Below, one piece after another: positions 1,555 to 34,479 of a stretch of DNA of 40,286 nt. Origin of the DNA: a bacterium (GTDB lineage: Bacteria; Patescibacteriota; Minisyncoccia; Sungbacterales; HO2-52-23); NCBI GenBank assembly GCA_030697705.1, contig JAUYPE010000024.1, positions 1 to 40,286 on the forward strand, read 5' to 3'. How positions within the stretch are numbered: the first letter of the stretch is position 1; each line of letters starts with the position of its first letter. Made by a program: the position numbers and the translations under genes. Below the pieces are notes generated by a model. That model was given only the letters and a program-made list of their open reading frames with translations. It was not told the DNA's origin and made no database searches.

Positions 1555-2220
1555 CTAAATTTGCTGCATTACCGCATTAATCCATCCGGCAATTCTTCTA
1601 TGAGAACTTTTGAGACAAAAATCAGCATCTCTTTTCCTCACAGACAGACCAACTGTTCCATAAGGCAGTTTTCCATGTTTTAACGGAGATTTATCGGTTC
1701 TCCTGTCTATGACCACTTTCCCAAACTGACTAAGCGGAAATTGTAGCTCTTCTGACCAAAAACCAATAGCTTCTCCGGGGTCCGTATCGGGATAGCCATG
1801 CACGGTTATCTGAAAATTTTTTATTGAAAATCCCATAGATTCGCGCAACCATTTTATACATAGCTTCAAGATTTTTGGGTCAGCATTTACGACTCTTATT
1901 TCTTCCGTTGCCTTTGATCCTTCTCCAAGGTAAAGCCCGATACCCAACATGAACAAATCCCTAGGGGTAAGCGTACCGACTTCAGTCATACCTTGATTTT
2001 TCATCTTTTCAATATCAGCAAATTTTACATTTTGCTTATGTAGGGCTGATTTTAGTCTTGCTGTGCCTATTCTTTCTATCACCTCTTGATTTGGTACAAA
2101 TTTAATGTCGGTCAGCCAATTGCTCAAGGTACTTTTTGAGACACCAATTTTCTCCTTTATCATTCCATAGGAATAACCAGCTATTCTTAGATCTATTGCC
2201 TCTCTTCTATATGGATTCAT
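1555..2220 (-). CDS. HTH plus LAGLIDADG-like protein (solo homing-endonuclease-like or regulator)
   Basis: N-terminal HTH (SYGMIKEKIGVSKSTLSNWL) and LAGLIDADG-like motif (LFMLGIGLYLGEGSK). Confidence 0.6.
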   Translation of the reverse strand: MNPYRREAIDLRIAGYSYGMIKEKIGVSKSTLSNWLTDIKFVPNQEVIERIGTARLKSALHKQNVKFADIEKMKNQGMTEVGTLTPRDLFMLGIGLYLGEGSKATEEIRVVNADPKILKLCIKWLRESMGFSIKNFQITVHGYPDTDPGEAIGFWSEELQFPLSQFGKVVIDRRTDKSPLKHGKLPYGTVGLSVRKRDADFCLKSSHRRIAGWINAVMQQI

Positions 2221-2287: not shown

Positions 2288-2354
2288 CGGAGCGCCGGGA
2301 ATCGCCAGCCCAAGGCTGGTCCGCCTCGGGCGGAAACCCGGTCCTCGTGTACCC
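2288..2354 (-). pseudogene. Decayed tRNA-Pro 3'-part copy interrupted by a 30-bp double hairpin
   Basis: cggagcgccgggaatcg / aacccggtcctcgtgtaccc match the adjacent tRNA-Pro, split at 2305-2334. Confidence 0.85.
2305..2334. repeat. 30-bp double-hairpin palindrome (ccagcc-caa-ggctgg-tccgcc-tcg-ggcgga)
   Basis: Two consecutive 6-3-6 perfect hairpins; same architecture as 32696-32725. Confidence 0.9.
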
Positions 2355-2375
2355 TCGCCCCACGAGAAACGCCTC

Positions 2376-2446
2376 TCGGAGCGCCGGGAATCGAACCCGG
2401 TCCTCGTGTACCCAAAACACGCATACTGCCGGTATACTACGCTCCG
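2376..2446 (-). tRNA. tRNA-Pro(TGG)
   Basis: Acceptor CGGAGCG/CGCTCCG, anticodon stem-loop CGTGT-TTTGGGT-ACACG, T-arm CCGGGTTCGATTCCCGG. Confidence 0.92.
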
Positions 2447-3269: not shown

Positions 3270-3283
3270 TCCAATCTATCTAT

Positions 3284-3333
3284 GGGCATTGCAGGGATCG
3301 AACTTCTGACCTTTCCGATGTGAACGGAGCGCT
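3284..3333 (-). pseudogene. tRNA-Val 3'-half fragment
   Basis: ggatcgaacttctgacctttccgatgtgaacgga identical to the adjacent intact tRNA-Val; 5' half lost. Confidence 0.85.
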
Positions 3334-3366
3334 ATTCCGAGAGATTGTTTTATTGCGAATAGAAAG

Positions 3367-3438
3367 TGGGCGGTAGAAGGATCGAACTTCTGACCTTTCC
3401 GATGTGAACGGAACGCTCTACCACTGAGCTAACCGCCC
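3367..3438 (-). tRNA. tRNA-Val(CAC)
   Basis: GGGCGGT/ACCGCCC acceptor, anticodon arm TTCCG-TTCACAT-CGGAA. Confidence 0.93.
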
Positions 3439-3621
3439 ACTTTCTATTCGTTTTTTAAGAAAGAATCTCACAAAAAGCAAAAACATTTGCTTTTTGTCCA
3501 CTTCGCTGAACTACGCGGGGGCAAGCCCCTACGGTTTCTGCTCCTAAGCTAAATATTCCCAGAAACAATCTATTATCAGTTCTCATCCTATACAAAAAAA
3601 CAACTCGTGGCAATTATAATC

Positions 3622-15891: not shown

Positions 15892-18800
15892 TTACAGCGT
15901 TGTGATGGAGGCGATGGTGTCGCCCGGCTCAAGTTTCATAATGCGCACGCCCTGCGTCGTACGGCCAAGCGAGGGGACCGCACCAAGCTCGGTATGAATG
16001 ACGACACCATGACGCGAGAAGGCGATGAGTTCACTCGCCTCACCATCAATAATATGCCCGCTGACCACCTTGCCGGTTTTTGGCGTAATCTTTGCCGTTT
16101 TTATGCCCGAACCTCCACGGCGCTGTTTTTTGTATTGTTTAAGCATCGTTTTTTTGCCAAAACCATGCTCCATGATGACGAGGAGTTTTTCATCGCCCGA
16201 AGTCCCTGGATTATCTCCTGATTTTGCGCGAATAACATCCATCCCCACCACTTCGTCGTCTTTTTTTAATTTCAGCGCATGCACGCCAGCCGCCGTCCGC
16301 CCCATCGGACGGACATCGCGCTCGGGGAAGCGCACCGCCTGCCCCGCCGCAGTCAGCACGATAAGCTCACTTTTGCCGTCAGTGAGTTTAGCAAAACGAA
16401 GCTCATCCGCACCTTTGAGTGTGACGGCGATAAGCCCGCTCCTTCGTACCGCCTCAAACTCGCTCGCCTCAACTTTCTTGATCGTACCGTCTTTGGTGAG
16501 CATAACGACATATCCCTTCTCTCCTTGCTCTTTTTTTCCTTTGGCCGCAACACGGTATTCTTTGCCCACCGCGAGGATAGAGGTTATCTTCTCTCCGGCG
16601 CCGAGCGAGAGGAAATTCACCACCGCCTTGCCTTTTGCGGTACGGCTTCCCTCCGGAATCTCATACGCGGGAATCTGAAAAACTTTACCTAAATTCGTGA
16701 AAAATAAGAGTGAAGCGTGCGTTGAGCAGGTAAGGAGCCGCTCAACGACATCCTCTTCTTTCGTCTCCATGCCAATTAATCCCTTGCCGCCGCGCTTCTG
16801 GACGCGATAACTGTCCGGCTTAATGCGTTTAATGTACCCCCCGCGCGTCGCAACCACCACCACCTCCTCCTCCGCGACTAAGTCCTCATCGGAAAACTCC
16901 CTCGGACTTGAGCGCACTACTCGCGTTCGCCGCTCGTCGCCGTATTTTTGTTTGAGTTCTACGAGTTCTGTTTTGACCGTGTCGCGAATTTTTTTTGCGT
17001 CACCCAACAGCGCTTTCAAATCTTTTGCGAGCTTGAGCTTCTCCGCCAGTTCATCCTCAATGCGCGCCCGTTCAAGCCCCGCAAGCGTCTGCAGGCGCAT
17101 CTCCAGAATAGCGGTCGCTTGTAAATCTGAAAGGGTGAATTTTTTAATAAGCGCGGTGTGCGCCTCTTCTTTGTCCTTTGACCGACGGATCGTCGTGATA
17201 ACCGCGTCAATATGGTCAAGCGCCTCTTTCAAACCCTCCAGGATATGAATGCGCTCTTCAGTTCTAGCAAGATCAAAGCGCGTGCGGCGCGTAATAACCT
17301 CGTGGCGGTGCTTTAAAAACTCCTCCAGCACGTTTTTGAGCGAGAGCACGACGGGCTGGATGCCGTCCACGAGGGCAAGCATGTTGAGGTGAAAACTCTT
17401 CTCTAAATCAGTGTGCTTGTAGAGGTTATTAAGCACTTTTTGCGGCTGTGCGTCGGCTTTCAGTTCAATGACGATGCGCAGACCGTCCTTGTCCGACTCG
17501 TCGCGCATGTCGCGGATGCCCTCTATTTTTTTCTCCGTTACGAGCGCCGCCATCTTCTCAATCATCTCGGATTTATTCACCTGATACGGAATCTCGGTAA
17601 TGATAATAACTTCGCCGCGCACCCCTTCCTCAATTTCCGCCTTCCCGCGGGCGAGAATAGCCCCTTTTCCCGAGGCATAGCACTCCCGAATCGCTTTTTC
17701 ATCATAAATAATCCCGCCGGTGGGAAAGTCGGGTCCTTTTACAAATTGCATGAGATCTTCGTTTGCCGAGTGCGGATGATCCGCCAAGTGGATGAGCGCA
17801 TCGGCAACCTCACCAAGATTATGCGGAGGAATGCTCGTCGCCATACCAACGGCGATGCCAAGCGTGCCGTTGAGCAATAAGTTCGGTAGGCGCGCGGGCA
17901 AGACCACCGGCTCCTGCACCGTCCCGTCAAAATTATCCCGAAAGTCAACCGTTTCTTTATCAATATCGGCAAGCAGCTCTGCGGCAATGGGTGCCAACCG
18001 CGCTTCGGTATAGCGGTAGGCGGCAGCAGAATCCCCATCGATAGAGTTATGGACGAAGATTCCCGCGGCAAGCGCGAAATTATGCGTCCCCTCAATAGTG
18101 AGATCATAGACATCCTCACATTCGGTGAGTCGTTCTACTTGTGTTACCTTGTGATTGTGTTTGAGTTCCTGCAGAACTGATTCGGTGCGATTTTGAAAAT
18201 ATTTTTGCAAACCCGTTTCCCACCGCGTTGCCGCACCGTAAGGATACACCACAGGTCGCGCCACTTCATATGATGCCTCATTCAGGTCTCTGGCGTGCAG
18301 GAGTACCTCCTTGCAAATTGCGAGAAACTTTTTCTTACCCGTTATGTTATGGGTATGGTTTTTGTTGCCTTTGATAATTTTCTCGTGCATAAAAGCGCGG
18401 TATGTCTCATCTTTCCACATTCTCTTCAGTGTTTTTGTCGCACGAAGACTGAGTTCTTGCCGCTTTTCAGGGTGCTCTTTGATATACTGCTTGTTGACCT
18501 TGCTTAAAAAGATGCTCATGGCCGCACGATAGGTTGGGTCTTTCCAATTTTCTCTATTTCTCTTTGCGATGCGCTCGGCATACGCTCTGCGTACCGAGGA
18601 TTGCGACCAATAGGCCGTTCGCCCTGCGGCAAGTCTTTTGCGATACTCGGGATCTCTGTGCTGTTCCGCCACACGCTCATAATGAACCTTCCAATGTTCG
18701 TCCCAATGGAGCCGAATGATGTTTGTTGGATTATTATTTTGTTTGCGGAAATCCTTGTGGTGGCGAACTCTGCCGGCGCTTTTTTGATAGACCGTATGCG

Positions 18801-19545
18801 TAAGGTTGTAGTTGTCCGCAAGATGATGGGCGGGCACCCATTCGTTTGTTTTCGGTTGATGGATAAGCATATATCCTTCCCGATCTAACCGATCATTTTT
18901 CTCTGATAATCGCTGGTAGAGCGGCATAAGTGAATCACCGGAGACGAGCTGGCGCGCTTCTTTATATAAGCCCTCTCGCGTCATAAAGAGATGGTTCGGA
19001 GTACAACGAATCTGCTTTCCGTTATCCAAAGTTACCCGAACCAGTTCGGCGCTTTTTCGCGTGAGTCGGGGATGTTTTACCTCCGCGATTGAAACAAGCC
19101 CCTTACTGTTTATCGTATAAGTGAAGTTCTGCACTCCCCCCTCATGTTCTTTTACCAGATCCTCAAAGCTCAATCCTCTGCCGTCGGTTAGTTGTACTCG
19201 CGTATCTTTCGTAAAACAGCCAAAATTACCTTGACCGTCCACGAGCGGGTAGCGCAACGAGAAGGATTGCGCCATACGCACCATGGACTCGTATGCCGCC
19301 GAGTCGCCGTGGGGATGGTACTGACCGAGCACATAACCGACTACTTTTGCCGATTTTTGATATTTCGCGTTGGGACGCAATCCCATCTCGTGCATGGAAT
19401 AGAGAATACGGCGATGCACTGGTTTTAATCCATCGCGCACATCGGGTAATGCGCGCGCGACAATAACGGACATCGCGTAGTCCAAGTACGAGTCCCGCAT
19501 CTCGTGCGTAATCTCCCGTGCCTCTATTTTACCGATATCCGCCAT
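15892..19545 (-). CDS. gyrA: DNA gyrase subunit A precursor with in-frame intein
   Basis: GyrA N-terminus ([31 protein letters not shown]), [10 protein letters not shown] active-site region, GyrA box QRRGGSG; 391-aa intein after GNFG. Confidence 0.96.
18046..19218 (-). mobile_element. GyrA intein (391 aa) with HNH-type endonuclease region
   Basis: Cys1 ([15 protein letters not shown]), block-B-like CTPNHLF, C-terminal FVHN|S; internal [29 protein letters not shown]. Confidence 0.93.
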
Positions 19546-31968: not shown

Positions 31969-32274
31969 ATGAAAATACGACTTAAACAACATGTAAGGGT
32001 TTCTTTACCGACTGTTAAGATTGGTGTAAGCCGTCAGATGGTGATTCCCAAAAAATTCTACGATACGCTTGGATTAGTACCGGGAGATTACTTAGAAGTT
32101 GACCTCTATCAGGGTAATCGCCTCTTGGTGACCCCTAAAGCACTCGTGAATAGACATCCGGAAATTGATCACCTCCTCAACGAGGCAGAGAACGACATCA
32201 AGACTGGCCGCGTGAGTAACTCATTTGCCACAGTTACTCAACTCAAGCGACACCTTGATGCGGCAACGCGGTAA
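31969..32274 (+). CDS. AbrB/SpoVT-type antitoxin
   Basis: VKIGVSRQMVIPKKFYDTLGLVPGDYLEVDLYQGNRLLVTPK swapped-hairpin motif; TAATG overlap with next gene. Confidence 0.85.
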   Translation: MKIRLKQHVRVSLPTVKIGVSRQMVIPKKFYDTLGLVPGDYLEVDLYQGNRLLVTPKALVNRHPEIDHLLNEAENDIKTGRVSNSFATVTQLKRHLDAATR

Positions 32275-32513
32275 TGCAGGTTCGCACCACCAAGCATTTT
32301 GATCGCTCCTATGCCAAAGCGTCACCTCTCATCAGACAGGCGTTTCTCAAGCAAGTAGCTTTTCTTCTTAAGGATATTGGTCATCCTTCACTGCGTGCGA
32401 AAAGGTATGATGAGATACGGTGGCAAGCCCGCATAACCCAGGATTGGCGCTTTTATTTTCGCGTGGAGAGGGATACCTATCTCTTACTTGATATGGTTCG
32501 TCATCCCAAGTAA
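32274..32513 (+). CDS. RelE/ParE-superfamily toxin
   Basis: KHFDRSYAKASPLIRQAFLKQVAFLLKD...RITQDWRFYFRVERDTYLLLDMVRHPK. Confidence 0.82.
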   Translation: MQVRTTKHFDRSYAKASPLIRQAFLKQVAFLLKDIGHPSLRAKRYDEIRWQARITQDWRFYFRVERDTYLLLDMVRHPK

Positions 32514-32564
32514 TCAACGGCACGACTTCAAATTTATATTTGACGGCGAGGAAGAAATAAGAAT

Positions 32565-32636
32565 GGGCACATAGCTCAATGGTAGAGCAGTCGTCTTATA
32601 CACGACCGGTTCTAGGTTCGAATCCTAGTGTGCCCA
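32565..32636 (+). tRNA. tRNA-Ile(TAT)
   Basis: GGGCACA/TGTGCCC acceptor, anticodon arm GTCGT-CTTATAC-ACGAC, T-arm CTAGGTTCGAATCCTAG. Confidence 0.88.
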
Positions 32637-32649
32637 TTCTTATTTCGAC

Positions 32650-32743
32650 CGAGTGAGCCGATTATATCATTGGTATACCTCGGCGGTTCTAGGTTTCCGC
32701 CCAAGGCGGATCCGCCTCCGGCGGACGAATCCTAGCGCACCCA
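32650..32743 (+). pseudogene. Decayed tRNA copy lacking the anticodon arm, T-loop interrupted by a 30-bp double hairpin
   Basis: D-arm-like TATATCATTGGTATA, then ggttctaggtt / cgaatcctagcgcaccca split at 32696-32725. Confidence 0.8.
32696..32725. repeat. 30-bp double-hairpin palindrome (tccgcc-caa-ggcgga-tccgcc-tcc-ggcgga)
   Basis: Two consecutive 6-3-6 perfect hairpins; same architecture as 2305-2334. Confidence 0.9.
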
Positions 32744-32982
32744 CTTTTATTTCGTCCGAACTTCCCGAGGGATACGCTCGTAAACCAGATATATCATAGA
32801 CGCAATCTATTCAAAACTTGATCCTCGACTGCACCAAAAATGAGCAAGAATCACAGATAAAGACCCTGAACTGCAATGATGCGCGTTTGACTTATCTCTC
32901 AAAAGCGCGTAAGACAGAGAGCGAAGGAGGTTATTTTTTCGTTTTTTGAAAATTAAATACCCAACACAAAGAGGGGAGTGCT

Positions 32983-34479
32983 GTGCATCAAACCATTTTT
33001 GGCAATGAGCAGGAGTACGGAATAGCAATCTCCGCTCCCACAGAAGAAAAACGCAAAGAAGAGATGGATCGGCTGTATGCCGGTCAGACGCTGGGATACG
33101 GACTCTCGCTCTATGGACCGCGCGGATTGGGAGGATTTCTTGAGAATGGAGGACGACTGTACCGAGACAACTCGTGGCATCCCGAGTATGCCACGCCCGA
33201 AGCCGGCTGCGCGTCTGATATCGTCTCATATATCCGGAGCGGCGACCGCATTCTTGCCATGATCGCCGACGGAATGAATGAGGGATTTTTCAAGGGAGGA
33301 GTGCGCGTAGCGTTCTTTGTCCATAACCGCGACGCCTCCGGCAATGTGTTCGGCACGCATGAAAACTACCTCATGACGCGCATGCAAAGCCGCATATCGC
33401 TCGGCGGCATCGCGGAGCTCATGGCGCCTTTTTTTGCAAGCCGGATTATTTTCACCGGAAACGGATCGGCAACACCCGGTGGCTATCACCTCTCCCAACG
33501 CGCATCGGCTACCGGTCATCTCGTCTCCGAACAGGCCAATCTGACCGGTGTACGAGGATTCATAAGTTCCCGCGATGAGCCACATGCCGACCGAGAACGC
33601 TGGCGCCGCCTTCACGTCATCGGTGCCGACGCGACGATGGCCGAGACGGCGACATTCTTCAGATATGGTGCCACCATGGCTGTCATAGAGCTCATAGAGG
33701 AAGAGTACTTAACCAAGTTACCGTGGTGGGACAGCCAATACCACTCCAACGATATCATCCCGGCGCTCCGCCATTATACGAACGACCTCACCCTCCGCAA
33801 AGCGGCGCGGCTCGGGCACGGCTATTATTCCGCGGCGGATATGCAGGAGTTCTATTATGAGAAAGTGGCGCGGTTTTCCGAATATACCGGACGCACGGAC
33901 GAGGAGCGTAAAAAATTGCTCGTTCTGTGGGGCGATTTGATTAAACGAGCGCGCTCCGCGCATCCCGAAGAGGCGCTTTCACCCTTCGTTGACTGGGCGG
34001 CAAAGATGCGACTTATGAAGGAACGGGGGTTGTGGTATATACGATCAAAAAGAGGAGGAACGCTTTTTCCGGACGATGCCACCTGCTACCGCGCACAGGC
34101 GATAGACATTCGGTATCACGATGTCGGTTCGCACGGCCTTGCCAACATCCTCATGAGTCCCACACGCGACAGCCGGCTCTGGCGTCTTGAACGAATGGTG
34201 ACCGACCAGTCCATTGGGGAGGCGTGCCGTGCTCCCGCACGGGACGTAGCGCGCGCAACCCGGGCTTACGCCCGAGCCGAGCAGATCAAATGGATTATAG
34301 ACAACGTTCGTAGCCACTGTCACATAGCAGTTGACTGGACAAGCATCAAAATCCACCGGAATATGTCATCCGGACCGTTCCATACCTTTTCCAATCCCGA
34401 TCCCCGGCGTTCTGATCCGCATATACCCCCGCACACGGAACAGTGGTCGCGGCATACACTCATCCCCAGAAAACCCTAA
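32983..34479 (+). CDS. PafA/Dop-superfamily protein (Pup/UBact ligase or deamidase/depupylase)
   Basis: GTG start with GAGGGGAG SD; FGNEQEYGI, FLENGGRLYRDNSWHPEYATPE, GTHENYLMTR, SSRDEPHADRERWRRLHVIGADATMAETATFFRYG, IDIRYHDV. Confidence 0.9.
   Translation: MHQTIFGNEQEYGIAISAPTEEKRKEEMDRLYAGQTLGYGLSLYGPRGLGGFLENGGRLYRDNSWHPEYATPEAGCASDIVSYIRSGDRILAMIADGMNEGFFKGGVRVAFFVHNRDASGNVFGTHENYLMTRMQSRISLGGIAELMAPFFASRIIFTGNGSATPGGYHLSQRASATGHLVSEQANLTGVRGFISSRDEPHADRERWRRLHVIGADATMAETATFFRYGATMAVIELIEEEYLTKLPWWDSQYHSNDIIPALRHYTNDLTLRKAARLGHGYYSAADMQEFYYEKVARFSEYTGRTDEERKKLLVLWGDLIKRARSAHPEEALSPFVDWAAKMRLMKERGLWYIRSKRGGTLFPDDATCYRAQAIDIRYHDVGSHGLANILMSPTRDSRLWRLERMVTDQSIGEACRAPARDVARATRAYARAEQIKWIIDNVRSHCHIAVDWTSIKIHRNMSSGPFHTFSNPDPRRSDPHIPPHTEQWSRHTLIPRKP

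Follow-up and report, generated by a model that had tools for sequence, protein, structure and literature searches.

A dispersed 15- or 30-bp palindrome of Patescibacteria found in frame in protein genes and in the loops of tRNA copies

The 30-bp double hairpin at positions 32696-32725 of the window (the whole stretch of 40,286 nucleotides analysed here) is probably one copy of a dispersed, non-autonomous mini-palindrome that is tolerated in genes and in redundant tRNA copies. The repeat is scattered across genomes, has a defined unit size and a preferred insertion site, lies in frame in protein genes, is present in one congener and absent from another, and is enriched in tRNA-derived sequence at fixed loop positions. 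Since it is often in frame in essential proteins and also recurs in tRNA loops, the tRNA T-loop is one favoured site and not the only one.

The insert consists of two abutting perfect 6-3-6 palindromes with no spacer, flanked by GGTT and CGAATCC. The layout is ...GCGGTTCTAGGTT, then TCCGCCCAAGGCGGA TCCGCCTCCGGCGGA, then CGAATCCTAGCGCACCCA..., which confirms the 30-bp double hairpin that an earlier, sequence-only reading had placed between GGTT and CGA. It splits the T-loop at 55^56 of a degenerate tRNA-Ile-like copy, 58 nt from the 3' end of the intact tRNA-Ile upstream.

32564..32637 (+): intact tRNA-Ile (TAT), presumed source of the degenerate copy (tRNA searches, 75.2 bits)
32653..32744 (+): degenerate tRNA-Ile-like copy with the T-loop (55^56) insert, 5' part heavily decayed (by identity to tRNA-Ile)
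32696..32710 (+): hairpin 1 of the doublet, TCCGCC-CAA-GGCGGA, an exact TCCGCCNNNGGCGGA match with 6-bp arms and a 3-nt loop
32711..32725 (+): hairpin 2 of the doublet, TCCGCC-TCC-GGCGGA, an exact match (predicted DNA fold)

With the insert excised, 30 nt of the copy are 90% identical to the intact tRNA-Ile (BLAST against tRNAs), and the complementarity of the T-stem, CTAGG/CCTAG, is kept. The copy gave no ARAGORN or Rfam match. Folded as DNA, positions 32684-32736 are predicted to form two neighbouring hairpins on the T-stem (z -3.15); as RNA, the doublet region has a very stable predicted fold of -38.9 kcal/mol (z -3.93). A MazE-like antitoxin gene and a RelE-like ORF (RelE by eye) stand directly before the tRNA-Ile (31969-32513, +), and a Pup-ligase family gene comes after the degenerate copy (32983-34479, +).

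A doublet near the other end of the window occupies the same position in a copy of an unrelated tRNA.

2288..2355 (-): tRNA-Pro 3'-half copy with an insert at GGGTT^CGA; with the insert removed, its 38 nt are 100% identical to tRNA-Pro 34-71
2305..2334 (-): first doublet copy, TCCGCCCGAGGCGGA + CCAGCCTTGGGCTGG read on the minus strand
2376..2446 (-): intact tRNA-Pro (TGG), 41 nt upstream of the insert

On the minus strand this copy reads GGGTT^TCCGCCCGAGGCGGACCAGCCTTGGGCTGG^CGATTCCC, the arms of the second hairpin being CCAGCC/GGCTGG. Both doublets interrupt 55^56, in the tRNA-Pro copy and the tRNA-Ile-like copy, so the earlier claim of a second, independent insertion at the same T-loop position of a different tRNA holds. 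A third tRNA 3'-half copy, of tRNA-Val and downstream of it, lies near 3283-3340 (-) and has no hairpin insert; its 3' end, CTGCAATGCCCA, resembles another tRNA joined at the T-loop. An HTH_3 protein at 1555-2220 (-), with a stretch that looks LAGLIDADG-like by eye (LGIGLYLGEGSK), adjoins the tRNA-Pro copy, and a similar HTH protein stands beside a tRNA copy in L071 (707-1321). In some tRNAs (Ile, Val-CAC, Phe and Ser-GGA) the flanks are perfectly complementary over 10-15 bases, lengthening the acceptor stem (32554-32571 / 32629-32646; 3354-3372 / 3431-3449; loci L029/L043 and L051); most tRNAs of the genome have no such extension. A GyrA-like frame at 15892-19545 (-) contains, by eye, an apparent intein (CFTKDTRV...) and an HNH-like segment.

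The window contains three exact matches to TCCGCCNNNGGCGGA and eight with at most two mismatches, where 2.5 were expected and none of 100 shuffles reached eight. Across the 858-kb genome there are 26 copies and no match to the reversed pattern. Coincidence, which the sequence-only reading had called unlikely, is excluded, and the two inserts belong to a repeat family. TCCGCCNNNGGCGGA is present in 43 of the 55 genomes surveyed, at 0-30 copies each; the reversed control matched in just one of the 55. A search of 287 genomes of the phylum for the strict 30-mer found it in 17 (control zero), indicating a patchy distribution. Among viral contigs the element was seen in one only, giving no sign of bulk carriage by phages.

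To describe the family we used 141 distinct elements (76 doublets and 65 singles), gathered from the surveyed genomes without conditioning on tRNA; the seeds needed one perfect hairpin, so decayed copies were missed. In doublets the first loop is purine-rich (AGA, AAA, CGA, GGA) and the second pyrimidine-rich. The symmetrised doublet flanks carry T at -3, -2 and -1 in 75, 88 and 61% of cases, which gives the form TTT^..^AAA. No direct flanking repeat is present in 124 of the 141 elements. Four doublets (L099, L132, L183 and L187) are flanked by 7-nt direct repeats, against 0.2 expected, which hints that a few insertions duplicated their target. Some singles are part of a separate, longer structured repeat, ATGGGAGG..GCTTGG-hairpin, so the singles as a group are heterogeneous. 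A repeat of about 100 bp with the same 15-mer at its tip, running from CAATGGGAGG through an arm, a GCTTGGT hairpin and a second arm to CCGACCTTTAGCGAG, was found in L004, L122, L124, L200, L205, L208 and L213; its arms are variable and complementary, and it is possibly a structured RNA or a REP.

Conserved protein genes are the commonest identifiable site of the elements: at least 45 of the 141, and at least 32 of the 76 doublets, lie inside recognised ones. Seventy elements are crossed by stop-free frames 150 or more codons long, and 49 of these elements are in frame 0, in which the element encodes SAxGG (single) or SAxGGSAxGG (doublet) and adds 5 or 10 amino acids. A Pfam protein was recognised for 42 of these 49 and for three inserts in the other two frames (binomial p 4e-17), the three being in PheRS (L193), a helicase-C protein (L184) and RNase HII (L199). 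The genes with in-frame elements include those for GyrB, RecG, Mfd, DnaG, SHMT, AtpB and aminoacyl-tRNA synthetases. Compared with solved Mfd, the element corresponds to a clean 10-residue gap, DVVF[SAQGGSAPGG]KNLGLV versus DVRF/RDLGLL; RecG and cysteine desulfurase also have additional residues at the element. Between the congeners G006 and G011 it is present or absent in a GyrB-like and a polymerase-like gene, both named by eye. The net size of the two gaps is 12 and 18 nt rather than a precise 15 nt, suggesting that local indels accompany the elements. No insertion event was seen among members of a single species. An insert in GrpE (Pfam GrpE; L109/L211) is common to both species, and copies can therefore also be stable. 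The inserted peptides probably sit in protein loops and are presumably neutral.

At least nine of the 141 elements lie inside tRNA-derived sequence, as called by BLAST against tRNAs, compared with 0.5 expected for random positions in the same loci. Five interrupt the T-loop, in every case at GTT^C (L002 Leu, L006 Pro, L007 Ile, L195 and L197), and T-loops make up five of the six elements in a GTT^CRA context. The other tRNA inserts checked are mostly in the anticodon loop, after TT or TTG (Asn L152, Lys L163 and L189, Ser L117). The tRNA copies that bear elements are partial or decayed and usually stand beside an intact tRNA. Since the copies are incomplete, ARAGORN gave no tRNA across the sites once the element was excised, and BLAST was used in its place. 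Locus L117:1447-2330 (G004) is an array in which a unit of tRNA-Ser 5' half, doublet and GIY-YIG gene occurs twice, followed by an intact tRNA-Ser and then a 3' half with a doublet; in the 5'-half copies the doublet is in the anticodon loop. The T-loop form, with inserts of 15, 19 or 30 nt, was also found in Dojkabacteria, Doudnabacteria, Niyogibacteria, Nealsonbacteria and Omnitrophota, in a scan that looked only for the T-loop pattern; it thus speaks to breadth, not enrichment, and was left out of the enrichment count. Matches of that scan in Mycobacterium, Devosia and Paenibacillus look like chance.

The unit of the repeat is 15 bp (TCCGCCnnnGGCGGA), which stands alone or is paired in inverted orientation to give 30 bp, and it lies in short T-rich/A-rich sites, approximately YTT^RAA, without general target-site duplication. 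The corresponding sites in tRNA are GTT^CRA in T-loops and TT^AA or TTG^AAA in anticodon loops. We suggest that copies persist where the harm is small: within genes, both lengths are divisible by three and the most frequent reading frame yields a small flexible peptide, SAxGG or SAxGGSAxGG; in tRNA, copies would survive in redundant partial copies beside an intact gene. Selection, not targeting, would lie behind the frame bias. An enzyme acting in trans may copy the element as folded single strands, with a REP/RAYT-like route as the leading candidate; a single-strand route that recognises hairpins, as proposed for REPs and RAYTs, agrees with the dispersal, the site preference and the absence of a general target duplication.

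The sequence-only reading had named such a mechanism as possible and proposed looking for a partner RAYT/TnpA-Y1 or tyrosine recombinase gene in the same genome. The genome has two Y1_Tnp genes, and TCCGCC hairpins flank neither. Copy number correlates weakly with Y1_Tnp genes (rho 0.37, n=55, uncorrected for phylogeny), and these genes are absent from G017 and G009, with 25 and 14 copies, which contradicts a requirement for Y1 in the spread of the element. No transposase gene was found between two such hairpins, and no mobilising gene for the element was identified. The Y1/RAYT mechanism is thus not established. A RAYT-like Y1 gene at L025:1207-1884 (-) is flanked by GGGGACAGGCACC-type repeats and not by the TCCGCC hairpin.

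A related but unlikely account is that an unrecognised system inserts a 15- or 30-nt self-folding oligonucleotide into T-rich sites and into the loops that tRNA genes form on folding. The repeat would then be a selfish element of minimal size, served by a dedicated enzyme, and its length, a multiple of three, and its flexible Gly/Ser/Ala linker frame would make it adapted for tolerance in proteins and structured RNAs. The earlier proposal was narrower, a site-specific family that targets the tRNA T-loop through a Y1/IS200-like enzyme or a tyrosine recombinase. Its core observation stands: all five T-arm inserts of the unconditioned set are at 55^56, and the same arrangement occurs in several phyla. 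Placement is also non-random, contrary to the survey outcome that would have counted against that reading, but tRNA is a minority target. Insertion confined to T-loops failed the test, with about 5 of 141 elements in T-loops versus at least 45 in protein genes, and the proposal is largely refuted as a general rule. As to Y1 as its driver, the weak copy-number correlation speaks for it, and the two copy-rich genomes that lack Y1_Tnp and the Y1 genes without flanking hairpins speak against it. We consider this targeting very unlikely to explain the family.

The true target might instead be the loops of folded nucleic acid, that is, hairpin apices in single-stranded DNA, in tRNA arms and in other palindromes. 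Consistent with this, those T-arm and anticodon-arm inserts that were examined interrupt loops and not stems, and several inserts occur at the apices of other palindromes, among them ATTCCGA^GAGGAAT (L009, L015), ATTCAGAG^CGAAGAAT (L021) and GGCACTGTTT..AAACAGTGCC (L004). However, flank complementarity over the 141 elements averages 11.2, compared with 10.8 for shuffled pairing (sd 0.23), the best stems come largely from one other repeat family, and a T-rich target alone may confine inserts to tRNA loops. The flank test rules out apex targeting as a general rule, though it may hold for a subset; as the explanation of the family it is quite unlikely. In L117 a GIY-YIG gene follows each doublet-bearing tRNA-Ser 5' half, and HTH-protein genes stand beside tRNA copies in the window and in L071, which is suggestive of nuclease-linked scars: homing endonucleases would cut tRNA loops, partial copies and hairpins would mark the repair, and the hairpin would block recutting. 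Yet the association with nuclease genes is clear in L117 alone, the ORF lists (read without a Pfam scan) showed no recognisable gene of this sort beside most other tRNA-embedded copies, and the inserts in protein genes are left unexplained; this account is more doubtful still. Highly improbable is the view that the hairpins are immobile functional RNA structures of recurrent origin, such as terminators or processing signals. The stability of the RNA fold and the frequent location of tRNA-linked copies downstream of tRNAs would suit it, but the same sequence core lies in frame within conserved protein domains and is present or absent between congeners, and the U-runs are 5' (TTT^..^AAA), where a terminator would not have them.

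A dispersed mini-palindrome tolerated where it does little harm, our preferred explanation, has relatives in kind. Palindromes inserted in frame within genes are familiar chiefly from Rickettsia and some REP-rich genomes; the Rickettsia palindromic elements (RPEs) are not known to have a dedicated transposase. RPEs lie in frame in protein genes and also in tmRNA and RNase P RNA, and are about 105-146 bp long, some CGTC ones being shorter (PMC2229807). The present element resembles RPEs, including the RPE-4/RPE-6 CGTC repeats, in being a dispersed palindrome found in frame in conserved genes, between genes and in RNA genes. It differs in its 15 or 30 bp, 6-bp arms and 3-nt loop, in its flexible SAxGG peptide, in its phylum and in its presence in tRNA T- and anticodon loops; this distinction is drawn from descriptions of RPEs. 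GTAG/CGTC REPs have stems that are mostly 6-9 bp for GTAG and occur predominantly as inverted pairs (PMC3733652, PMC8049555); some copies are intragenic, including in genes for replication and repair (PMC3733652). Like REPs and REPINs, the element is a short scattered stem-loop, paired in 76 of 141 cases and sometimes intragenic. Unlike REPINs, its two hairpins abut without a spacer, at least 45 of the 141 copies are intragenic and no RAYT linkage was found. A CGTC tag lies within 2 nt of the stem-loop foot in one of the 141 elements and a GTAG tag in none, which sets the repeat apart from the tagged REPs and from the short RPE families with a CGTC terminus.

MITEs measure about 50-500 bp and bear terminal repeats; young ones are also flanked by target duplications (PMC10969869). 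The element is likewise small, non-autonomous and palindromic, but has 15 or 30 bp and shows neither these terminal repeats nor general target duplication (none in 124 of the 141). IS200/IS605 elements (TnpA-Y1) are similar in having hairpin ends and in integrating next to a short tetra- or pentanucleotide with no duplication of the target; here, unlike in IS200/IS605, no transposase was found between such hairpins. We found no description of this repeat in Patescibacteria/CPR in the literature, in a search that was thin on subscription journals and preprints. The element accounts for apparent hairpin-bearing tRNA pseudogenes, a potential annotation pitfall, and could serve as a marker of strain history and as a test case for how a 15-bp sequence that carries no gene can spread. 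Its in-frame copies amount to many natural linker-scanning experiments in essential proteins. As it fails the tests of tag, length and transposase linkage, it is best regarded as a member of neither the RPEs nor the REPs, although it works like them: a much smaller unit, spread through tiny-genome Patescibacteria, that places SAxGG linkers in GyrB, DnaG, RecG, Mfd, aminoacyl-tRNA synthetases and ATP synthase.
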